From: a virus
Reading direction: 5' to 3' (one strand)
Virus record (IMG/VR): IMGVR_UViG_3300009183_000373
Coordinates: 1-23,469 of that record
DNA: 23,469 bases
A program made the position numbers and the translations under genes. Every line of letters begins with the position of its first letter. The stretch's first letter is position 1. The notes beneath the pieces are model-generated. The model was not told where the DNA came from. It did not search any database and saw nothing but the letters and a program-made list of their open reading frames with translations. Of this stretch, positions 1 to 18,971 are shown piece after piece.

Positions 1-588
1 CTTATGCAATCCATAAGTAAATAAAGTTTCTTCCCTGTGCGCCACGCGAGAAAGATTTAGGTTGTAGTCATACACACCAGCCCGATACAGAAAAGAACAA
101 TGCAGATGTTCAACCTTCTTATAGCCTTCAATCATTCCCCATTGAATGTTTGGTTCTAGGTCTATTAAGTCAATCGTGCCAGATACCCTAGATGTATCCA
201 TGACAGGCGGGGTTAGGATTGAGCCACCTACTGCGCCAACTTTGTCAAAAAATGTCGTAAAGGAATATAGGCGTTTAAGCACATTAGGTTCTGGTATTGC
301 GTCATCATCCACGCGCCAAACCCATTCATAGCCCATGCTATTTGCCATCTGGTGAATATGATGCTGACCTTTTTTGCCAGCATAAATCCATTCCCACGCA
401 ATCTTTTTAATGTCCAGCATTTGAAAAAAATGCGCGTAGATCAATTCATTCCGCATATCTTGCGGTTCATCATTGTCATCAAAGATAACTAACTTATCTA
501 CCTTATGCGTCTGGTTAATGATTGCTTGAAGGGTTAGCGGTAAGGTCGTAAAGTATCGACCCCGTGTAGCCACAGAACAAAGAATCAT
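1..588 (-). CDS. GT-A fold glycosyltransferase, family 2-like (partial, C-terminus beyond window)
   Basis: The frame opens at ATG 588 and stays open for 196 codons to the left edge, so the C-terminus is missing. The start overlaps the methyltransferase stop (ATGA) and is preceded by AGGTGG, a good Shine-Dalgarno site. The protein begins MILCSVATRGRYFTTLPLTL, a typical GT2 opening strand and helix. It then has LVIFDDND (33-40) and VWRVDDDAIPEPN (90-102), which holds the DXD-type metal and nucleotide-sugar motif. HREETLFTYGL (184-194) could hold the acidic catalytic region. The family transfers a sugar from an activated donor. The acceptor is unknown; its position after the fibre genes suggests a virion fibre or host surface glycan, which is inference. 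The fold call is fairly secure and the substrate is not. Confidence 0.8.
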   Translation of the reverse strand, partial: MILCSVATRGRYFTTLPLTLQAIINQTHKVDKLVIFDDNDEPQDMRNELIYAHFFQMLDIKKIAWEWIYAGKKGQHHIHQMANSMGYEWVWRVDDDAIPEPNVLKRLYSFTTFFDKVGAVGGSILTPPVMDTSRVSGTIDLIDLEPNIQWGMIEGYKKVEHLHCSFLYRAGVYDYNLNLSRVAHREETLFTYGLHK

Positions 589-1259
589 GCATCCCACCTA
601 CATAGCATTAAGTTACAACGATTTGTTTCGCAAATGATTTGGGGTTGGTCGGTAATGTTGCCCGCTTCAGATATATAAGCAAATTTAAAGTCTGGGAAAT
701 GGCTTTCATTAAGCCCGTGCAATTTGTGATGCTCGCCCCAAAATCCTTGCGGTTCATTCCACGGCACAGAAATTAAAAGTCGTTGGCAATGTTGTTGAAG
801 CATTTTCACAATCTCTAAACCATTGTCTAGATGCTCAATGACTTCAAACGCAATGATGGTGTCCCAAGAATGTTCTAGCCCATCATTTATGTTGGCTTGT
901 TTAAAGTGTCTATGCAAACCCCATGCTTGTTCTTGCGCTACATCAACAATAATTGGGTCGTAATCAAGACCAAGGTAATGCGCTGTTGTTGGCAAAAACT
1001 GTGAGCCGTATCCAGTAGAACAACCAACTTCTAAAACATCTTGCCCATTGAAGTTTTGGTTTGCCCAAATGTAGCGTGTGGCTTCCCTTGGAAATACTGG
1101 GTCACCTTTTAAGAAAACCGCCCGTTCATAGTTGTTAGATAGTCTCCAACGATACCAATCTGGGTGATGTTCTTTGGCAAGTTTTAATGCGTGTATTTCT
1201 AGGATTTGTTCCCAATGGGTTACAACGCTTAACCCGTATATTGTCTTATCTTGTGTCAT
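585..1259 (-). CDS. SAM-dependent class I methyltransferase
   Basis: This 224-residue protein has the Rossmann methyltransferase motifs in order: VLEVGCSTGYG (75-85, SAM-binding loop), GLDYDP (97-102, acidic residue for the SAM ribose), and IIAFEVIEHLDN (135-146, of the Methyltransf_11/23 type). A fourth strand, LLISVPWNEP (161-170), follows, then a His-rich segment (WGEHHKLHG). This pattern fits small-molecule or sugar methyltransferases rather than DNA methylases, since no DPPY or PCQ motif is visible. It starts three bases after the fibre stop (TAAGACATG) and overlaps the glycosyltransferase by 4 nt, so the two are probably made together and may act on the same glycan. The substrate is not deducible. 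Confidence 0.85.
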   Translation of the reverse strand: MTQDKTIYGLSVVTHWEQILEIHALKLAKEHHPDWYRWRLSNNYERAVFLKGDPVFPREATRYIWANQNFNGQDVLEVGCSTGYGSQFLPTTAHYLGLDYDPIIVDVAQEQAWGLHRHFKQANINDGLEHSWDTIIAFEVIEHLDNGLEIVKMLQQHCQRLLISVPWNEPQGFWGEHHKLHGLNESHFPDFKFAYISEAGNITDQPQIICETNRCNLMLCRWDA

Positions 1260-1262
1260 GTC

Positions 1263-3416
1263 TTATCTTGGATATGTTGCGTCAACCTTTGTTCCTACTG
1301 CCAAGCCTGTGCCAAACACAATGGATGTTCCGCTTGTGACTGTTACATCTGTGCCGTTAACCATCCTAACCCCGTTTACATATACGCTGATTTTTCCAGA
1401 TGTATAACTTAACGAAGTTGTGAATGTTGTTTGCGCGGCAGTTGCCGTAAATTGATCATAGATTACGCCCGTAGCCGTTCCAGAATAACCAGAGTAACCA
1501 GAAAAGCCCGATGTTCCAATTCCTGAGTAACCAGAAAAACCACTATATCCAGAAATGCCAGAACCCGAATAGCCAGAATAACCGCTTATTCCGCTTGCAC
1601 CATTAGAACCCGTGCCACCTGAGTAACCGCTAATCCCTGAGAATCCAGACCAGCCAGAGATTCCGCTAAATCCAGATGCGCCTTGTGCGCCATTAGTTCC
1701 GCTAATACCAGAAAAACCTGAGTACCCAGATACACCAGAACCGCTATATCCGCTAAAACCTGATACACCAGAACCAGAGAAACCAGATATGCCTGAGAAA
1801 CCAGAGTAACCAGACACACCGCTTCCGCTAAAACCTGAGTAACCAGAAATTCCAGAGTAACCGCTTGCACCGCTATACCCGCTTTGGGTATACATGACTT
1901 GTGTAGCAGTAAGAATTACAGAAGGTGTTAATGGGTATGTTGCATTGCCAGCAAGAGTTTCAATGTAAACATTTGCGTTTGTTGTGTCCCAGAAAAGTTG
2001 AAACACATCATTTGCCGCAACAGTCAAAACATAATTGACAGTTAAAACTTCAGACGAATATGCGCTACCTTGTTTGTCTGGCACATCAAAATGTGTATTG
2101 CTATCAGCAACATTAGTTCCATTTTTCTTTAACCAAACTTGCGTATTTCCCAAAGCCGTGCTGTGGTTTGTAAACTGAATGGAATAAGTAATGCTGTAAG
2201 TGCCAGCATTATTGAATTGCCATTGGCTTGCAGATATAAGATTTACGCTATTGCTACCAGCCGTTGTATTTAGCGTTATAGCCGTTGCCGTGTTAGCAGT
2301 TGTTGTCTGATTTGTGGTGTCGTAAAAAGAACCATAAGCCCCGATAGTTCCACCTAGACCAGCCGAACCGCTATATCCAGAAATCCCCGAAAATCCGCTA
2401 TATCCAGATATTCCAGATGCACCGCTAAAGCCAGAAACACCACTACCAGAAAAGCCCGAATAACCAGACCATCCAGAAACACCAGAGCCACTAAACCCAG
2501 ATATGCCTGAGTAGCCCGAAAACCCGCTTACACCGCTTCCAGAGAATCCGCTAATGCCTGAGTAGCCAGAAGTGCCAGACGCGCCAGAAAACCCGCTTAC
2601 GCCCGACCCAGAGTAACCAGAAAAACCTGAGTACCCAGAAACCCCGCTACCAGAAAAACCAGAGTAGCCAGAAACGCCACTTCCAGAAAATCCGCTTATT
2701 CCGCTAAAGCCAGAATATCCGCTAATTCCAGACGCACCAACTGCACCAGAAAAACCAGAATAACCACTTACGCCAGAGCCTGAGTAACCAGAATATCCAG
2801 ACACGCCAGACCCACTAAATCCTGAGTAGCCAGAGATTCCGCTAAAGCCTGAGATACCAGAAAAGCCGCTTGTGCCTTGTGTGCCTTGTGCGCCTGAGAA
2901 TCCAGAATATCCGCTTACACCAGACCCAGAAAAGCCTGAGTAGCCCGACACACCAGAACCACTAAAACCTGAAAATCCCGACTGTCCACTAAATCCAGAA
3001 TAACCAGATGTGGATGCACCACTCATTCCAGAATAACCAGAATATCCAGAATAACCCATTCCAGAAAAGCCAGAATAACCACTAACCCCAGAGCCAGAAA
3101 AGCCTGAGTAGCCGCTATAACCTGAGTAACCGCTATAACCACTTCCACCAAGAAATCCATTTTGTCCAGAAATTCCGCTATATCCCGAAAAGCCAGAAAA
3201 ACCCGATACACCAGACCCCGAAAATCCAGAATAACCAGAAGTGCCTGAGTATCCAGAAACGCCACTTATGCTTCTATCAATATTGATAGTCTGCGTTGGT
3301 AATGGTGTGACTTCGACATTGATGTTATTTTGACCACCGACAGTTACATCTATCTGGTTGACAGTCAAATTTACATCAGTTGGGTCACCCTTTGTGATGC
3401 TAAGTTGTGTTGCCAT
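1263..3416 (-). CDS. Collagen-like GXS-repeat tail fibre with C1q-like insert
   Basis: This is a 717-residue fibre in four visible parts. Residues 1-50 are non-repetitive and probably attach to the tail. Residues about 51-355 are Gly-X-Ser triplets, mostly GYS, GFS, GIS and GVS, with frequent GSGVS interruptions. Residues about 357-510 look like a C1q/TNF-type jelly roll, with alternating strands such as WQFNNAGTYSITYSIQF and VWLKKNG. Residues about 511-648 are repeats again. The last 70 residues (DQFTATAAQTTFTTS onward, with ISVYVNGVRM) form a small beta domain that also occurs in the hub. The triplets recall collagen but are nearly proline-free with an aromatic X position, so a true collagen triple helix is uncertain. 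It lies 1 nt after the 160-residue gene. The likely role is receptor binding or a side fibre. Confidence 0.85.
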   Translation of the reverse strand: MATQLSITKGDPTDVNLTVNQIDVTVGGQNNINVEVTPLPTQTINIDRSISGVSGYSGTSGYSGFSGSGVSGFSGFSGYSGISGQNGFLGGSGYSGYSGYSGYSGFSGSGVSGYSGFSGMGYSGYSGYSGMSGASTSGYSGFSGQSGFSGFSGSGVSGYSGFSGSGVSGYSGFSGAQGTQGTSGFSGISGFSGISGYSGFSGSGVSGYSGYSGSGVSGYSGFSGAVGASGISGYSGFSGISGFSGSGVSGYSGFSGSGVSGYSGFSGYSGSGVSGFSGASGTSGYSGISGFSGSGVSGFSGYSGISGFSGSGVSGWSGYSGFSGSGVSGFSGASGISGYSGFSGISGYSGSAGLGGTIGAYGSFYDTTNQTTTANTATAITLNTTAGSNSVNLISASQWQFNNAGTYSITYSIQFTNHSTALGNTQVWLKKNGTNVADSNTHFDVPDKQGSAYSSEVLTVNYVLTVAANDVFQLFWDTTNANVYIETLAGNATYPLTPSVILTATQVMYTQSGYSGASGYSGISGYSGFSGSGVSGYSGFSGISGFSGSGVSGFSGYSGSGVSGYSGFSGISGTNGAQGASGFSGISGWSGFSGISGYSGGTGSNGASGISGYSGYSGSGISGYSGFSGYSGIGTSGFSGYSGYSGTATGVIYDQFTATAAQTTFTTSLSYTSGKISVYVNGVRMVNGTDVTVTSGTSIVFGTGLAVGTKVDATYPR
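1480..1881 (-). repeat. Imperfect tandem repeats encoding GXS triplets (distal block)
   Basis: Minus-strand units of 9 nt and multiples (GGN TAY/TTY TCN type) repeat imperfectly and code for residues about 511-648 of the fibre. Codons vary at wobble positions, so selection seems to act on the protein rather than on identical DNA. Repeats of this kind can expand or contract by slippage or recombination. Confidence 0.85.
2360..3270 (-). repeat. Imperfect tandem repeats encoding GXS triplets (proximal block)
   Basis: This longer block of the same 9-nt based units codes for residues about 51-355 of the fibre. A higher-order unit of roughly 24-33 nt (GYSGFSGSGVS in protein) recurs several times. 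It has no constant-length spacers and is not CRISPR-like. Confidence 0.85.
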
Positions 3417-4187: not shown

Positions 4188-5768
4188 TTATCCTTTCAGA
4201 GCCACAAGTTCGGCTTTTACTGTATCTAGTTCTGCTTTTAAGTTTTTAATAGCGTTAATCATGTACCAAGTCAGATTTTCAGAATTAACCGACAAAACAC
4301 CACTTGATTCTTCTTTTACGCAATCAGGCAATACTGCTTGTAATTCTTGAGCAATAACGCCAAGTTGAACACCAGTTTTTTCAATAATATTTGATGGGTT
4401 TAGTTCTGTTATTTCTTCTTTAAGACGATACTCAAAATTACGAATTCGAACAGATGTTATTTTGTTTAAACCATCTGTGTTATCTACAATGTTCTTTTTA
4501 AGTCTGCGGTCAGATGTAGTTGACCAAACGGCACTATTTGCTTGGTTATAAACACCAGAAGAACCGCCAAAGTAACCAGTATTAGAGCCTTTTCCTTGGA
4601 ATGGGAAACCACCTCCAACTACTGTTTCATTAGAATCTGTTGCCGCATTTAGAATTGCATTTCTACCAATACAGGTATTTGTTGCGCCAGTTGTTATGTT
4701 GTCTCCAGCCGTATAACCAACGCAAGTGTTATTAGAGCCTGTAGTATTTCCAGAAAGTGCTACTCGACCAATACCGCAATTTGCAGTTCCACTTGTATTA
4801 GCAAATAAAGCACCAGCACCAACAGCAGTATTATCGCCAGCAGTATTTGATTTAAGTGCTTCTTCACCTATTGCAACATTACTAGCCCCAGTTGAATTTG
4901 AATATAGGGCTTGATAACCTAATGATGTGTTATATGTTCCAGTAGTTCCACTGTAACCAGCCTGATAACCTACTGCTGTGTTGTAAGATGCTGTGGTGTT
5001 GGCTTGGAGTGCGCCAAAACCAAATGCCGAATTATTAGAACCCGTTGTATTAGAACGCAATGTCCCTACCGAATTGTCATAACTACCAAAACCAGCGTTT
5101 CCTGAACCAGTTGTGTTGTTTTGCAATGTTCCTGAACCAAAAGCGGCAATATATCCAGTCGTTGTATTTGTAGCGGCATTTAACCCAAGGGCAGTATTAA
5201 AAGAGGCTGTATTGGAATATAAAGCACCATAACCAATAGCAGTTATAGAGCCATTGGTAGTGCTGGAGTAAGCCGCCTGATAACCTACTGCTGTGTTGTT
5301 AGATGCTGTGGTGTTTGCTGATAAAGCACCTACCCCTACACCTACATTTGAACCGCCTGTCGTGTTAGAAGCCAATGCACCTGATATAGAAGTTGTTGTA
5401 CCACCTAATGCAGTATTGGCTGTACCAGTTGTATTTTGCAATAAAGCATTTGCACCATAAGCGGTATTTTCGCCAGATGTATTTGCTTTACCTGCTTGAT
5501 AACCAGTAAAAGTAGAATAACTTCCTGTTGTAACTAATCCAGCCTGATAACCAGCCACAAATAATCCTACTCCTGAACTATTTCCGTTTAATGCTTGATA
5601 ACCAAGTGCCGTGTTAGTAGCAACAGACCCTGCGCCTTTACCTACTGTTAGACCATTGGCGGTTATGTCGGTTGTCCAAGATGGATTCTTAGAATTTGTG
5701 GAAAGGTCTAATTTTCCAGATGAATCAACACCATTGGCTAATTGTGAAAGATTAAATGCTTGTGTCAT
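4188..5768 (-). CDS. Tail fibre with YadA-like repeats and C-terminal S74 chaperone
   Basis: In this 526-residue protein, residues about 45-400 carry many copies of a degenerate unit of the form NTAxGYQA(L/G)...NTTG. This resembles the left-handed beta-roll head repeats of trimeric autotransporters and similar phage fibres. Residues about 413-526 are an intramolecular chaperone (peptidase S74) domain, with the motif TTSDRRLKKNI. Ser419 and Lys424 are placed as expected for the Ser-Lys self-cleavage dyad. LGVIAQELQAVLP follows, and the terminal helix is probably a trimeric coiled coil. In this family the domain trimerises and folds the fibre, then cuts itself off. The ATG overlaps the hub stop by 4 nt (ATGA). 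The likely role is receptor-binding fibre. Confidence 0.9.
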   Translation of the reverse strand: MTQAFNLSQLANGVDSSGKLDLSTNSKNPSWTTDITANGLTVGKGAGSVATNTALGYQALNGNSSGVGLFVAGYQAGLVTTGSYSTFTGYQAGKANTSGENTAYGANALLQNTTGTANTALGGTTTSISGALASNTTGGSNVGVGVGALSANTTASNNTAVGYQAAYSSTTNGSITAIGYGALYSNTASFNTALGLNAATNTTTGYIAAFGSGTLQNNTTGSGNAGFGSYDNSVGTLRSNTTGSNNSAFGFGALQANTTASYNTAVGYQAGYSGTTGTYNTSLGYQALYSNSTGASNVAIGEEALKSNTAGDNTAVGAGALFANTSGTANCGIGRVALSGNTTGSNNTCVGYTAGDNITTGATNTCIGRNAILNAATDSNETVVGGGFPFQGKGSNTGYFGGSSGVYNQANSAVWSTTSDRRLKKNIVDNTDGLNKITSVRIRNFEYRLKEEITELNPSNIIEKTGVQLGVIAQELQAVLPDCVKEESSGVLSVNSENLTWYMINAIKNLKAELDTVKAELVALKG

Positions 5769-10756: not shown

Positions 10757-12694
10757 TTACCTAGTTTGCGGCAATGATCGTTGTGCGGTCTGGTTTGCCG
10801 CCCAGACTGCGCTTTTGTTTTTAGCCAAAAACTGTGTGGCTGACTGCGTGTCTATCGCGCTCATTTGCGCTATGTATGGACCATTGTAGGTAACGCTTGG
10901 TTGATTGCTACCCATAGCACTACTAAGCATATTGTTTGGAATTACTGTTCCAGAACTGCTAGGCACAATCAATTCTGGACCACGCTCGCCAACAATGTAT
11001 GGGCTATTTGCGTTTATACCGCCACCATCTGCGCGGTAATTAACATCTGGGTTAAATATATTAGCGGGTGAACCACCACTAAACAAAGAACTAAACATTC
11101 CCATTCCACCTATTGATTTAAAAATAGATAGGGCTTGCGCTTTAAGTTGAATAGCAATAATGTCTTGAATGATGCTTTGGGCTAATGATTTAAAAGATAG
11201 TTTTCCTGTACGCACAAAGTTATCTAGCGCGGAATTCATGTTACCCATGACCGATTCAAAAGCCATTTGTCCACGCTCTAATTCTGTTGTTGCATTGCGG
11301 AAATAATCCCCCATAGCCAAACCAAAACCTTGCTCAAAAGTACCTTCGCGAACTGATTTAATTGCTTGATTTCTTGCCCTTGCAAGTCTTTCTGCTTCGT
11401 CTGCTATTGCTTGTTCTGTTTTTAATAATTCAACTTTGGATTCTTTATCCAAAATATTATCTCTGCTAATCGCCTTCATCTTTTCCGCACGATTGCTTTC
11501 TATTTCATACAAGTCTTTAGAAAGTTGCACATCTTCTTGTCTCATGTGCAAACCTTTTATGCTTAATTCAAACATTGCTTGTTGGTCTTTTAATGATTTT
11601 TCTTCAACCATTTGACGCAATGCAACTGTGTGATAAGCATCAACTTCTTTGCGTAATGTTTCCATTCGCAACTTATCTTGATCTTGTAAGTCTTTATTGA
11701 TAATGCGGTTTCTAGCAAGTTCTAATGCTTTTAACTTTTCTGCTTCTGCATCTCTACCTACTTTTGTTAATCTTTTTGGCGAACCATTAGGTTTATTTGC
11801 ATCCCATCCTTCGCCAGACCCAGAATCAAATGAACCTAATTCTTGTATTCTTTTAAATCTAGCGTATTCGTCATTAAACTTTTTTAGTTTTTCTGTATTT
11901 GCGCCAAACATGGCAAAACCAAATGCAGAAGAAAAGTCAATCAACATTTTCATGTTGCGACCTAAATTATTAAAGGCATCTGATAGTTTGTCTATTTCAT
12001 GTAATGAAGATTCCAGCCATTGCGTAAATTTCAATGCTGGTGTTCCAACAAATGCAGTAAAGGTTATTAAGACTTCATGCGTAATCTTGTGTAACATATC
12101 CCATGCTTTAGCGGCATCTTCAATGCTTTTGGCTTGCTCTTTTGATACATGACTAGTTTTTTCCATGTCTTCAGCAACGCCAGCAACTTCTGCACCTTTC
12201 ATTGCCCTACCAAGTATTTCGTAAGCCCTTGCTTGCCGTGTTAATTGGTCTGGTATTTCTGATAAACCTTTTAATGTTTTGGCAAACAATTCTTCCATGC
12301 TCAAAGTACCTATGTCTTTGAGACTTATGCCAACATCTTTAAATGCCTTTTGCGCTTCAAAAGAACCAGTAGCCGCTTTGTCTACAAAGGCTGTAAATGC
12401 ATTTAATATTTTTCCAGCATTTTCTGCACTACCGCCATTTTGGTCTAAGGCTTCACCCAACTTTAAAACTGTGGTGATAGCCATGTCATTGGCTTTGGCA
12501 ACATCAGATATTGAATCCGCAAATTCCAATGCCTTATAGGTCATGGCGGCAAATGCGGTTGCGCCTACTGTTGCAAATGTTTTTGCTTGTGATGCGAATT
12601 CAGACAGGTCTTTTTTGGCGGCTTCTATGCCTTTGGAAAACTCCGCGCTATCGATACCAAGTCTTACACCTAGTCTAGCAATCGTATTAGCCAT
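10757..12694 (-). CDS. Tail tape measure protein
   Basis: At 645 residues this is the longest helical protein in the tail block and lies directly after the G/T chaperones. The N-terminus (MANTIARLGVRLGIDSAEFS) and the helical stretch to about residue 150 are typical of phage tail tape measure proteins. The middle (about 310-440) is charged coiled coil. Hydrophobic patches occur near 205-260 and 525-545. The C-terminus has SFKSLAQSIIQDIIAIQLKA and the common signature YIVGERGPELIVPSSSGTV (about 566-584). It sets tail length and passes into the host on DNA ejection. At about 1.5 angstrom per residue it predicts a tail near 95 nm. It overlaps the T frame by 8 nt. Confidence 0.93.
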   Translation of the reverse strand: MANTIARLGVRLGIDSAEFSKGIEAAKKDLSEFASQAKTFATVGATAFAAMTYKALEFADSISDVAKANDMAITTVLKLGEALDQNGGSAENAGKILNAFTAFVDKAATGSFEAQKAFKDVGISLKDIGTLSMEELFAKTLKGLSEIPDQLTRQARAYEILGRAMKGAEVAGVAEDMEKTSHVSKEQAKSIEDAAKAWDMLHKITHEVLITFTAFVGTPALKFTQWLESSLHEIDKLSDAFNNLGRNMKMLIDFSSAFGFAMFGANTEKLKKFNDEYARFKRIQELGSFDSGSGEGWDANKPNGSPKRLTKVGRDAEAEKLKALELARNRIINKDLQDQDKLRMETLRKEVDAYHTVALRQMVEEKSLKDQQAMFELSIKGLHMRQEDVQLSKDLYEIESNRAEKMKAISRDNILDKESKVELLKTEQAIADEAERLARARNQAIKSVREGTFEQGFGLAMGDYFRNATTELERGQMAFESVMGNMNSALDNFVRTGKLSFKSLAQSIIQDIIAIQLKAQALSIFKSIGGMGMFSSLFSGGSPANIFNPDVNYRADGGGINANSPYIVGERGPELIVPSSSGTVIPNNMLSSAMGSNQPSVTYNGPYIAQMSAIDTQSATQFLAKNKSAVWAANQTAQRSLPQTR

Positions 12695-13046
12695 TCTTGA
12701 ACCTATCCTGTTTGAAATCTGGGGCTTGGGTCATAAACGCCAGAAGACTATTATTAACTGATGCTTTCTTGTCTTGTTCGCTCAATGGCGGATAAATGTA
12801 ATCATACGCGCTACCCAAAATGTTGGCTAGTTTATAAGGGCGGGAATTTGCCTGTCTCATGTAATTAAATACACCAGCAGTTAGCGACCCTAAAACTTCC
12901 AATGTCGCACGATTTCCAATCATGCCATCTGCATACATTGTCTGGATTTGTGCCATTGTTATATCGTCTATGTCTGCAAGTGAATCATGTGTATGCCCAT
13001 TGAAGATCATTGCGACTTCAACTTGTTTCCTCAATGAGCCAATCAG
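12687..13046 (-). CDS. T extension of the G-T tail assembly chaperone (made by -1 frameshift)
   Basis: This frame is in -1 relation to the upstream G gene and is open from the slippery site onwards. After G codon 160 it adds 119 residues (LIGS, then RKQVEVAMIF near its start), giving a G-T fusion of about 279 residues. Read alone it could only begin at TTG 13034, which lacks a ribosome site, so frameshifting is the better explanation. In lambda, G and G-T coat and chaperone the tape measure and recruit tail tube protein; G-T is made at a low ratio. Position just before the tape measure, with an 8-nt overlap, fits fully. The sequence itself shows no family motif that I can name. Confidence 0.85.
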   Translation of the reverse strand: MIGSLRKQVEVAMIFNGHTHDSLADIDDITMAQIQTMYADGMIGNRATLEVLGSLTAGVFNYMRQANSRPYKLANILGSAYDYIYPPLSEQDKKASVNNSLLAFMTQAPDFKQDRFKNG

Positions 13047-13525
13047 TTTCCCCGTGATTCCTTATATGTTGGGCTAATCGCTTCTGAAATCTTTTCAATC
13101 AAAGTGATCTGCACCGCCATTGGAAATTCTGCTTCCACTTCTTCATAAGTTAAGTCGGCTAATGAATCGGCTTCATTTTCTGGAATAAGCAACTTAATAA
13201 ATTCAGTTATGCGGTTTTGGGTCATCAACTTTAGTTTGGCAGTCTCGCGCATAGACCGACCATTTACCAGAATGTCGTTATCAACAAATTGGAATTCTTC
13301 AGTCTCTTGCCCTTTGAATTGTTCCAAGGGTTTTGCGATCTGGTCATAGACCAACGCAATATCTTCTTCTTTTGGATTCTGGATGCGCTCATACATGGCA
13401 TCCGATTCAGCCACAGTTGGCACTCTGACTTTGAAGTTATAACCGCCTAGTTCAAACTGACGAATGAATAAGCCTTTGCGTTTGCCCTCATATTGAGAGC
13501 CAAGAAGGGATGCTAATTTTGTCAT
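13043..13525 (-). CDS. Tail assembly chaperone, G-like
   Basis: This 160-residue, acidic, mostly helical protein begins MTKLASLLGSQYEGKRKGLF and has a strand-rich segment FELGGYNFKVRVPTVAESD (about 24-42), which is common in phage tail assembly chaperones. Many Glu and Asp residues lie around PENEADSLADLTYEEVEAEF. It stands two frames upstream of the tape measure and ends with a slippery heptamer, the diagnostic arrangement of the lambda G/T pair. It starts 12 nt after the gp10-like gene, with AGG as the ribosome site. The short form should be the abundant one and is not expected in the finished virion. Confidence 0.85.
   Translation of the reverse strand: MTKLASLLGSQYEGKRKGLFIRQFELGGYNFKVRVPTVAESDAMYERIQNPKEEDIALVYDQIAKPLEQFKGQETEEFQFVDNDILVNGRSMRETAKLKLMTQNRITEFIKLLIPENEADSLADLTYEEVEAEFPMAVQITLIEKISEAISPTYKESRGN
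13046..13052 (-). other. Programmed -1 frameshift slippery heptamer GGGAAAC
   Basis: In the G reading frame the codons are CGG GGA AAC TGA. The heptamer G GGA AAC fits the X XXY YYZ rule and is followed at once by the G stop codon. Slipping back one base places tRNAs on GGG AAA and continues into the T frame. Lambda uses GGGAAAG at the same gene boundary. A Shine-Dalgarno-like AAGGA (13063-13059) lies 6 nt upstream. A 6-bp hairpin, TTGAAG/CTTCAA (13021-13000), lies 24 nt downstream, farther than usual. Confidence 0.88.
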
Positions 13526-14559: not shown

Positions 14560-15054
14560 TTAAGTGCTTGCAGTCCAGCCGTACTGATTGCCACGGGGAT
14601 GGATAGTAAAAGTTACTTTGGCTTCAGCGTTTGGTTGGCTGTCAATTTGCCACTCGCTAACGCGACCATTGAAGGCGTAGTTAACGATTCCTGTGCCATC
14701 AGTAGCAGAGATAACAAAGGTGCGGTCAATCATGCCGTTGTAAGCATCACCGCGCAACAACAACAATACTGTATCGCTTGGATTCCATGCGGCAGTAATT
14801 GTCATGCTGGTAGGTGCAGACTGCGTTGGGATTTTGTCTGATTGGCGTGAACCAGCGACAGAAAAAGATGCCATAGCGTCATCTTGACCAAATGCGGGGA
14901 TTGCTTCCACAGGCACTAGATTTCCAGAAATTGCCAATGCGCTTACGCTTGCGTAAACAGAAAGGTTAGCCACAGTCAAAGGCGTTGGGGTTGCGCTTGG
15001 TTGGGCATATAGCGTTGCTGAGAAACCAGCAAGAATTTTAGCGGGTAGTGCCAT
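14560..15054 (-). CDS. Major tail (tube) protein
   Basis: This 164-residue beta-rich protein has the features of a siphovirus tube subunit: MALPAKILAGFSATLYAQPS at the start, repeated strands (SMTITAAWNPSDTVLLLLRG, about 83-102), and a C-terminal FNGRVSEWQIDSQPNAEAKVTFTIHPRG typical of tube proteins. The ribosome site GAAGGA lies 8 nt before the ATG in a 38-nt gap, stronger than most sites here, which fits high expression. It follows the tail terminator gene. A domain search could separate it from a minor tail protein, but its order and ribosome site support the tube. Confidence 0.75.
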   Translation of the reverse strand: MALPAKILAGFSATLYAQPSATPTPLTVANLSVYASVSALAISGNLVPVEAIPAFGQDDAMASFSVAGSRQSDKIPTQSAPTSMTITAAWNPSDTVLLLLRGDAYNGMIDRTFVISATDGTGIVNYAFNGRVSEWQIDSQPNAEAKVTFTIHPRGNQYGWTAST

Positions 15055-16524: not shown

Positions 16525-17556
16525 TTAAACCCCGACTAAACGAACACCAGCAAATGGGTCACGCACAGAACTGACCATGCGCTTTTCAGCATATAAGGTT
16601 ATAAAACCAGCCTGAGTTTGTTCCATTGCTTGCACAGTCATTTCTTCAACATCTGCAATAGTTACAAACCGATTCCAACAGGCTAAATAAATTGCAAACT
16701 TACCAGCCCCAATAGTTTCCATGTTGGCATTAGGAATAACGGGGAAACCAAATACATACGCAACTGCACCACCATCATCATCGCCTACCTCAGTAAACAT
16801 TGGTGCGCCACCAGTAGCACCTTTTAATTTGCGTAGGGCTTGAATAGTGTTGGGGTGCATCATCCAAGCATTGCCCATACAAGACCAATAAGGTGCTGGT
16901 AAAGCATTGCAAAGATTAACAATATCATCATAGGCAATGGATGCGCCAGCCTGACTAACAGTTGCAATGGAATGAATGCCGTCTGTGATTGCGTAACCGC
17001 TAGAGCCATAAGCCGCAGTTCCCGCGCTTGTGTAGTAATTCAAACCACGCAAGCCATTTGTTCCACCAGTTGTAGTAGTGGTAGTTCCAGATTGATCGTT
17101 GTTAAGAATCATAGATGCGCCTTCAATAGACGCAAATTCCATTGCTAAATCTTCAACGATTGTTTCGTTTAAATAATTTACATCTGACATTACTGCCGTG
17201 CGAATTGGCAACTGTGCCGTAATCACGCGAGTAGGCAATTGCCAAATGCTTGTGTCTGTGTTTGGTGTGCCACTATTAGGCGTGAATGTATAAGTCCAAG
17301 GATTAGTTTGGCTTGCGGCATTACCCGTTTTAGCAACAAACTGAACCGCAGAACCTTGTGCGGGAATTACCCGTGCCGCTTGACGAATTGGGTTTGCAAA
17401 ACGCAAAGCCGCAAACGCATCATCAAAATAAGTGCGACCACCAACCCCATAACCAGAGCCTGTGATTGCAGACGCTTCGCGCAAATCAATTTTGACTTGA
17501 TCGCCTGTCTCTAGTGTTTGCTTAATGCCTGATAGGATTTTTTCGGTGATGGTCAT
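16525..17556 (-). CDS. Second HK97-fold capsid protein, lacking the scaffold domain
   Basis: This 343-residue paralogue of the upstream major capsid protein aligns without doubt by eye from residue 27 (EASAITG; partner 106, EASALTAG) to 339. Shared blocks include GGRT..D..F.ALR.ANP.R, F.VKTGNA-type, DTSIWQL, PIRTA...D, MEFA/VEFA..E..SM...NNDQ, GGTNGLRGL, GFIT...EKR...SVRDP.AGVR. It lacks the roughly 100-residue delta-like region, so it starts about where the partner would be cut. It could be a minor shell subunit such as a vertex protein (compare T4 gp24 with gp23) or a second shell component. Its ribosome site is only a weak GGA, 8 nt upstream. It follows a terminator, so its expression is probably lower. 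Confidence 0.85.
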   Translation of the reverse strand: MTITEKILSGIKQTLETGDQVKIDLREASAITGSGYGVGGRTYFDDAFAALRFANPIRQAARVIPAQGSAVQFVAKTGNAASQTNPWTYTFTPNSGTPNTDTSIWQLPTRVITAQLPIRTAVMSDVNYLNETIVEDLAMEFASIEGASMILNNDQSGTTTTTTGGTNGLRGLNYYTSAGTAAYGSSGYAITDGIHSIATVSQAGASIAYDDIVNLCNALPAPYWSCMGNAWMMHPNTIQALRKLKGATGGAPMFTEVGDDDGGAVAYVFGFPVIPNANMETIGAGKFAIYLACWNRFVTIADVEEMTVQAMEQTQAGFITLYAEKRMVSSVRDPFAGVRLVGV

Positions 17557-17621: not shown

Positions 17622-18971
17622 TTAGGTCGCAGTACCAGTTGAACGATAACGAACACCAGCGTTAGGGTCACGCACAGAAGTTGCCAAACGCTTTTCACCA
17701 AAGAAGGTGATGAAGCCAGGGGCTGTCTGGTCGTATCTACGCATAACCATGTTCAAACGATCAATGATTGTGTGAAATCTTGAGAAATCAGCAAAATACA
17801 TTGGGTACAAACTAGATGTTCCAGCAGAGCCAGCAGTTGCTTGTGATGGGTTGTCAAGATACTTGTTCATCACAACATCAAAGCCCAACATCTGACCAAT
17901 GATGCCATCTGGGTTCAAAGATTCAACAGAATTGAAAATTGGTCGACCATTGGTATCTTGCAGACCGCGAATTGCTTGTGCCAATATTGGGTTAACCATC
18001 CACTTAGCATTAGAAGTCCAATATTGTTGTGGCAATGCATACATAGTGTTAATCACATCTTTATAAGCAATTGAGTTTGCGCCAACTGTATTAGCGTTAG
18101 AAGTCAATTGATCATAAGTTGCAAGGCTATGCAAGCCTGTGCTAGAGCCAGTACCGCTAGAGCCAAATGCTGGTGTTGAAGTTGTACCACCAGCGTAGGT
18201 TGCATTAGCACCAGCGTATTGGTCAAGACCACGCAAGCCGTTAGTACCACCATAAGGATTGCTAGCAGACTGTGCGGCTTGGTCATTATTTTGCACCATT
18301 GACAATGCTTCTGATTGAGCAAATTCAACCAACATATCATCAACCACATTGGCTTCTAAACCATCAATATCGTCTAGCGCGGCTGTACGAATTGGGAATT
18401 GCACATTCAAATCTTGCAAAACTAATTGCCAAATTGAAGTGTCTTCAGTTGTGGTTGCGCCATTGTTTTGAATGGTGTAACCCCATGCCGCACCAGCATT
18501 GCCAGTTTTAACGCGGAACTGATAAGAAGAACCATCAGTTGCAACTGTGCGAGAAATGCCACGCATTGGGTTAGCCAAACGCAAAGCAACAAACACAGGG
18601 TCATAACCAGTTCTACCACCTTGGTTATTACCGCCAGCAGTCAATGCAGATGCTTCAGCCATGTATGCACCATATTGGCTTTCGTCTTCAAACATCTTCA
18701 ATTCTTTTTCAACATTGCGACCACCTTTGTAGTAGGTTGCAATTTGCTCTTTCACCGCACGATTCACATCACCGCGAACAGTTTTGTGTGGGGCGCGAAT
18801 GATTGCTGGTGCTTGAACAGATGCGACTTTGGCTTCTAAAGCAGAAACTAATTCTTGGAATTCCGCTTTAACGGCTTCCACAGATGCTTGTGCTTGTGAA
18901 GTTACTTCTTCAATCTTGGCGGTATTTGCCGCTTCAATTGCGTCTAATTTTTCAATGATTTCTTTTGACAT
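17622..18971 (-). CDS. Major capsid protein (HK97 fold) with N-terminal delta domain
   Basis: In this 449-residue protein, residues 1-55 form a coiled coil (KEIIEKLDAIEAANTAKIEE) and the charged region to about 104 acts as the internal scaffold domain seen in HK97 gp5. The mature part starts near MAEASALTAGG (104-114), the likely processing zone. The E-loop and shell regions follow: RTGYDPVFVALRLANPMRG (120-138), FRVKTGNAG (152-160), PIRTAALDDIDG (193-204) and the end SVRDPNAGVRY. It lies directly after the prohead protease, whose stop codon falls between its ribosome site (AAAGG) and its ATG. It should be the most abundant head protein. Confidence 0.93.
   Translation of the reverse strand: MSKEIIEKLDAIEAANTAKIEEVTSQAQASVEAVKAEFQELVSALEAKVASVQAPAIIRAPHKTVRGDVNRAVKEQIATYYKGGRNVEKELKMFEDESQYGAYMAEASALTAGGNNQGGRTGYDPVFVALRLANPMRGISRTVATDGSSYQFRVKTGNAGAAWGYTIQNNGATTTEDTSIWQLVLQDLNVQFPIRTAALDDIDGLEANVVDDMLVEFAQSEALSMVQNNDQAAQSASNPYGGTNGLRGLDQYAGANATYAGGTTSTPAFGSSGTGSSTGLHSLATYDQLTSNANTVGANSIAYKDVINTMYALPQQYWTSNAKWMVNPILAQAIRGLQDTNGRPIFNSVESLNPDGIIGQMLGFDVVMNKYLDNPSQATAGSAGTSSLYPMYFADFSRFHTIIDRLNMVMRRYDQTAPGFITFFGEKRLATSVRDPNAGVRYRSTGTAT

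Follow-up and report, generated by a model that had tools for sequence, protein, structure and literature searches.

The question raised by this locus is what becomes of ribosomes that reach the end of a 160-aa ORF, here called G, in the tail gene region of a virus genome: whether all of them terminate there, or whether some move one base back and continue into a 115-codon ORF, T, that sits one frame back from G. The sequence analysed, hereafter the window, is a 23,469-base IMG/VR virus record carrying a siphophage structural module on its minus strand. The module comprises genes for terminase large subunit, portal, protease, capsid proteins, connectors and major tail protein, the 160-aa and 115-codon ORFs, and the tape measure gene, the portal and protease labels being assigned from gene order and size only. 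The overlapping G and T frames are thus placed between the major tail protein gene upstream and the tape measure gene downstream, and the elements around them are as follows.

14560..15054, minus strand: major tail protein (phrog_158, match 8.7e-8)
13043..13525, minus strand: G, putative G-like tail assembly chaperone ORF, 160 aa, 18.4 kDa (from the ORF, gene order and predicted fold)
13059..13063, minus strand: AAGGA, Shine-Dalgarno-like candidate stimulator, 6 nt 5' of the heptamer
13046..13052, minus strand: slippery heptamer G_GGA_AAC, abutting the G stop (from sequence and conservation)
13043..13045, minus strand: G stop TGA, the first codon past the heptamer (TGA or TAA in GGGAAAC relatives)
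12687..13046, minus strand: T extension in the -1 frame, 119 codons from CTG 13046 to the stop TAA 12689-12687 (from the reading frame and third-position variation)
10757..12694, minus strand: lambda-type tape measure protein (Tape_meas_lam_C, 3e-14)

A sequence-only reading of this DNA had proposed a -1 frameshift at a GGGAAAC heptamer directly before the stop codon of G, and its account of the site, with G ending CGG GGA AAC TGA, the heptamer at 13052-13046 and the stop adjoining it at 13045-13043, proved correct to the base in phase and coordinates. The 3' end of the G frame reads TCA CGG GGA AAC TGA, and G_GGA_AAC is the only X_XXY_YYZ site that we found in the 16-nt G/T overlap; it is in frame and leads into the -1 frame, which is open in that phase, as had been claimed, from 13061 to the TAA at 12689-12687. 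Slippage at this site would join G and the T extension in a predicted 279-aa, 31.6-kDa fusion. However, GGGAAAC is not a rare word in the window, where it occurs five times against 2.6 expected, and the case therefore rests on comparison, that is, on phase, position and conservation.

Homologous loci were collected by searches with G, by searches with T and from a phage collection, which together gave 162 loci including the window; removing redundancy around the junction leaves 115. The sole named isolate among them is Methylophilaceae phage P19250A. Two loci (L161 and L162) with the same G-T junction lie on contigs binned into bacterial MAGs (Crocinitomicaceae and Gammaproteobacteria), and these are probably phage contigs binned with bacteria. 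The sequence-only reading had pointed to conservation of the heptamer in related phages as a check, and the heptamer is indeed GGGAAAC in 70 of the 115 non-redundant loci, while A_AAN, as AAC, AAG, AAA or AAT, stands directly before the G stop in all 115. The remaining classes are GTCAAAG (25 loci), CTCAAAG (6), GGAAAAG (3), GGGAAAG, TTTAAAA, TTTAAAG and AAAAAAC (2 each), and GTCAAAA, TTCAAAG and GGGAAAT (1 each), with one clade carrying CTCAAAG beside the full heptamers TTTAAAG and TTTAAAA. A second search, with a DNA pattern, specified the start region of T and left the slip site and stop unspecified against circular selection; it gave at least 80 loci, some on contigs already in the first homologue set, and among the matches listed all 62 unique loci have A_AAN followed by a stop.

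Constraint at the site extends to synonymous positions. The glycine codon is always GGA in the GGGAAAC class, although GGA is the rarest glycine codon elsewhere in G (19/320), and GGA159 and AAC160 show zero synonymous variation in the 15 closest relatives of equal length, which is so for only 16 of 155 G codons; both counts ignore shared ancestry. The sequence-only reading had tied the mechanism to a slippery site being kept wherever both frames are kept. Relatives with both frames and TCA AAG before the stop, where P-site re-pairing would be lacking, do exist (P19250A, which is L001, as well as L024, L047 and others), yet they retain a re-pairable A_AAG, the stop and the downstream stem described below, so that the mechanism is broadened rather than refuted. 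Re-pairing in the TCA AAG relatives is open only to the last tRNA, as it is at the known A_AAG tetramer sites (PMC4066793).

The AAGGA to which a possible supporting role had been ascribed lies where it was said to lie, at 13063-13059. This element or AGGGA is present in all 73 loci of the AAAC/AAAT class, although AAG makes up only a third of the lysine codons elsewhere in G, and it is not kept in the GTCAAAG class. It is thus a possible stimulator of frameshifting, the 6-nt spacing making its role uncertain.

The strongest element of the locus, however, had been missed: a 12-bp stem 3' of the heptamer. Its parts, together with two potential start codons of T, are located as follows.

13028..13039, minus strand: 5' arm of the stem (GCUCAUUGAGGA), beginning 6 nt past the heptamer (from alignment and covariation)
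13007..13027, minus strand: 21-nt region enclosed by the stem (neither conserved apical pairing nor a pseudoknot was found)
12995..13006, minus strand: 3' arm of the stem (UCUUCAAUGGGC; from alignment and covariation)
13032..13034, minus strand: TTG, the proposed alternative T start (not conserved, absent in 51/115 loci)
13008..13010, minus strand: first in-frame ATG of T, codon 12 (replaced by leucine codons in 15/115 loci)

The stem is kept in all relatives examined, with at least 11 of its 12 pairs. RNAalifold on the ungapped alignment gave the stem a z of -13 in the GGGAAAC class and of -8 in the other class, relative to column shuffles, and standard pairs fill 98.6% of 1,032 cells (86 distinct sequences) compared with 92.8% in shuffles; when the 3' arm is shifted by one to three bases, stem pairing falls to 30-58%. 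Four stem pairs show compensating changes on both sides. Columns 18-54 form A-U in 51 sequences and G-C in 34, with one exception, and columns 21-51 form G-C in 51 and A-U in 34, again with one exception. These two pairs, together with 15-57 and 24-48, link synonymous third positions of the GSLR codons with those of the IFNG codons. Random choice of synonymous codons for the same proteins lowers the pairing to 8.07 +/- 0.19 pairs, as against an observed mean of 11.84 of 12, and the amino acid sequence therefore does not account for the stem.

Stem changes were also counted on a protein tree for which the stem columns had been left out. There were at least 10 changes of state in pair 18-54 and at least 8 in pair 21-51. 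Among independent comparisons, six for 18-54 show the partner changing in the same sense, none in the opposite sense and one no change, and for 21-51 the figures are six, none and none; in each case p was 0.03, the lowest value that the concerted-change test can attain with six pairs. A covariance model of the signal found one match in the window and one in P19250A (73.7 bits). We looked at the junction for a pseudoknot between the loop and downstream sequence and for a conserved apical stem and found neither, and the search of Rfam returned only a sub-threshold match to the retroviral gag/pro frameshift element (E 0.91; 17 bits, the threshold being 43), which we took to be due to chance.

Stems of 11-12 bp positioned 11-12 nt from the first base of the P-site codon cause the strongest pause of bacterial ribosomes (PMC8861025, PMC7282821). 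The stem in the window begins 12 nt past the P-site GGA, and from this geometry it should act exactly when the heptamer fills the P and A sites. We propose that most ribosomes would end G, at 160 aa, on the TGA at 13045, and that the stem would pause a minority of them while GGA and AAC occupy the P and A sites, respectively; these paused ribosomes could slip one base back on G_GGA_AAC and read on through T to give the 279-aa G-T fusion. The stop codon would be next in the tunnel at the moment of the slip, and would reach the A site only after one further translocation. It is from the sequence that we infer slippage itself, its rate and the action of the stem as its stimulator. G_GGA_AAC is a low-efficiency site in E. 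coli, whose tRNA set may not be that of the host, yet IS elements use such a motif (PMC4066793); low efficiency is in keeping with a product made in small amounts and could be the reason why a stem is needed.

The position of the stop also admits a different timing, in which the same G-T fusion is made but the ribosome slips after translocation, when the last peptidyl-tRNA is in the P site and the stop has entered the A site; the rate would then depend on the availability of release factor, and the stop would be part of the signal. This alternative, which we consider rather unlikely while taking it seriously, is consistent with the stop lying right after the slip site in every locus and with the codon before AAR being TCA in 33/115, where only the AAR tRNA re-pairs; further, when a stop followed the HIV heptamer in E. 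coli, overexpression of RF2 abolished slippage (PMC4373837). In the class to which the window belongs, however, a slip by the last tRNA, which reads AAC, would set it on AAA with a third-position mismatch, whereas the preceding glycine tRNA can re-pair from GGA to GGG. The GGA codon does not vary, and the position of the stem suits a pause earlier by one codon. The alternative shares the frameshift with the preferred explanation and differs from it only in the step at which the slip occurs, and our leaning against late slippage and our high confidence in the frameshift do not exclude one another. Direct competition of slippage with termination, as the sequence-only reading had it, is plausible by analogy with the precedents in PMC4373837.

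A further possibility is that the stem is not a stimulator of slippage at all, and serves instead to mask the internal ATG of T or to protect the mRNA. The ATG sits in the closed loop, and stems of this kind can block initiation. We nevertheless judge this explanation improbable, since the stem is equally kept in relatives with neither ATG nor TTG there (among them L024, L037 and L141), lies at a constant distance from the slip site, and has the length of known stimulators (PMC8861025).

The evolution of the T frame itself bears on whether T is reached from G. In the 73 loci of the AAAC/AAAT class, mean pairwise differences at positions 1/2/3 of the four -1 codons before TTG 13034 are 0.04/0.00/0.33, and over -1 codons 0-11 they are 0.16/0.21/0.44. 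Variation is thus concentrated in third positions from the slip site on, upstream of TTG 13034, and the -1 frame is under purifying selection there. Nor are the candidate starts constant. The slot at T codon 4 is TTG in 64/115 loci and something else in 51/115, 8 of the latter with GGGAAAC, whereas the ATG at codon 12 is kept in 100/115. Seven loci (L024, L026, L027, L037, L039, L076 and L141, the last carrying GGGAAAC) lack any ATG, GTG or TTG upstream of the conserved FNGHT, which means that T must be reached from G in those phages; the first ATG was checked in six of the seven and is codon 30 in those six. The codons conserved in these start-less loci are likewise conserved in the clade of the window. 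The selection from the slip site on and the start-less relatives strongly support the view that T is made as a continuation of G, in a G-T fusion, and not from a start of its own.

These data bear equally on the reading in which T is a separate protein, started at TTG 13034 or ATG 13010 by reinitiation or coupling after termination of G, with an incidental overlap of the frames. The frequency of the codon 12 ATG and, to a lesser extent, of the codon 4 TTG would suit it, as would the annotation of P19250A, in which T is a gene of its own beginning at that ATG. We regard it as very improbable, however, because it leaves the start-less loci without a route to T, the frame 5' of both starts shows the variation expected of coding sequence, the conservation of slip site and stem extends to synonymous sites, and no Shine-Dalgarno-like sequence lies 5-10 nt before either TTG 13034 or ATG 13010 in the window. 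Translation from TTG 13034, which the sequence-only reading had entertained as the competing account, is excluded as the general route of the family by the non-TTG loci and the seven start-less ones. Its remark that the downstream frame has no good start holds in part: the ATG at 13010-13008 exists in the window, while both it and TTG 13034 are missing in several relatives.

Taken together, the comparative evidence strongly supports the -1 frameshift at GGGAAAC that had been read from the window, and we conclude with high confidence that this is a real programmed -1 frameshift signal in a putative siphophage tail-assembly chaperone gene, very probably directing synthesis of a G-T fusion. The source is a freshwater-type tailed phage, in which ribosomes very probably slip back one base before the stop, helped by a hairpin that is kept paired. 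A chance occurrence of a common heptamer near a stop, without recoding, has a negligible probability in our estimate, for although the word is more frequent in the window than expected, the site is conserved in more than 100 divergent loci, with synonymous constraint and covariation. Transcriptional slippage was considered and rejected, since it needs longer runs than the 4 G and 3 A present at the site, as was stop readthrough, T lying in another frame.

Among the closest known systems is the -1 frameshift of lambda G/GT (Levin 1993; Xu 2004, 2013, 2014; reviewed in PMC5009743), where again a pair of overlapping frames separates the major tail protein from the tape measure, with a GGGAAAR-type heptamer, a -1 shift and a minor G-T fusion. 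The exact lambda heptamer, GGGAAAG, occurs at the same place in two relatives of the window (L029 and L031). The window differs in having GGGAAAC, in having the stop as the next codon and in the covarying 12-bp stem that follows, and we detected no sequence similarity of its G or T to the lambda-type family. In Burkholderia phage KL1, a GGGAAAC directly before TGA was predicted at the tail-chaperone position of gp18/gp19 in 2012 (PMC3483164), and GGGAAAC-TGA is seen in the sequence of that record (JF939047); unlike in the window, one more gene separates G-T from the tape measure in KL1, and its record gave no match to the covariance model of the window-family signal.

With regard to the stem, E. 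coli dnaX and HIV-1 gag-pol are similar in having an 11-12 bp stem, 5-6 nt past the heptamer, at the mRNA-tunnel entry during slippage (PMC8861025, PMC7282821), and differ in their slippery motifs and in the codon after the heptamer, which is a sense codon. An upstream Shine-Dalgarno-like element also occurs in dnaX; the AAGGA of the window, a possible counterpart, is only 6 nt upstream. Systems known from eukaryotic RNA viruses share the stop codon in the intercodon position, their genes and structures being unrelated. Also close are genes 0013/0014 of P19250A (KX815270), which have homologous G (53% identical) and T (about 55-57%), the same stop position and the stem, but TCA AAG TAG where the window has GGA AAC TGA, and which are annotated as two separate hypothetical proteins.

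Neither G nor T gave an informative sequence-family match in Pfam or PHROG. The structural model of G (pLDDT 88), for which one row from a phage record was left out of the alignment used in prediction, best matches, among solved structures, the tail assembly chaperone of HK97 (2OB9; Z 5.9, rmsd 3.6, 101/107 residues), where a Z below 8 can reflect a common arrangement; the Foldseek E value was 2.0. In the ranking, the uncharacterised 5IR0 and 3FGX fall between 2OB9 and clearly unrelated chains (Z 3.0 down). The 2OB9-like predicted fold and the gene order together lead us, with moderate confidence, to assign G as a tail assembly chaperone. The model of T is of low confidence (pLDDT 68.6), with Foldseek matches only to uncharacterised phage proteins. 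By analogy with the lambda model, in which G-T bridges tape measure and tail tube (PMC5009743), G would coat the tape measure protein and the T part would recruit the tail tube protein. The tape-measure ATG overlaps the final codons and stop of T (window 12687-12694, minus strand), and tape measure synthesis could thus be coupled to passage of the few ribosomes that enter T.

Signals of this kind are already known from lambda G/GT and from the GGGAAAC-TGA of KL1, and the window is a new, well-supported case with an unusual, strictly kept layout. Comparative support of this sort, from dozens of divergent homologues with synonymous constraint and repeated compensatory changes in a stem, is seldom available for phage tail-chaperone frameshifts; here it identifies otherwise unannotatable G and T proteins in a large group of uncultured phages and corrects the annotation of P19250A genes 0013 and 0014 (L001 6001-6812), for which it favours G and G-T made by -1 frameshift. 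The family also provides a natural series of slip sites in one stem context (GGGAAAC, GGGAAAG, AAAAAAC, TTTAAAG and TCAAAG), which lets the effect of the stop codon and of the P-site codon on bacterial -1 slippage be tested. More speculatively, the layout might amount to a distinct "slip-stop-stem" cassette, widespread in freshwater-type siphophages, in which the G stop would be a fixed functional part with a re-pairable A-site codon on one side of it and a covarying stem on the other, release factor availability would tune the ratio of G to G-T, and one clade, with TCA AAG before the stop, would do without the half of the heptamer that lies in the P site; we offer this tentatively, and incline to doubt it in this full form.

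Elsewhere in the module, the window carries tandem HK97-type capsid protein genes (16525-17556 and 17622-18971, minus strand), both PF05065 and 41% identical to each other over 355 columns, with two ORFs of comparable size at the corresponding place in P19250A (L001 697-2085 and 2163-3221). A 526-aa protein (4188-5768, minus strand) combines Ala/Asn/Thr/Gly-rich repeats with a C-terminal Peptidase_S74 (endosialidase-type intramolecular chaperone) domain, and a 717-aa protein (1263-3416, minus strand) consists mostly of collagen-like repeats (G-x-SG-(Y/F)-SG) interrupted by a non-repeat domain. A SAM-dependent methyltransferase-like gene (585-1259, minus strand) lies at the end of the structural module.
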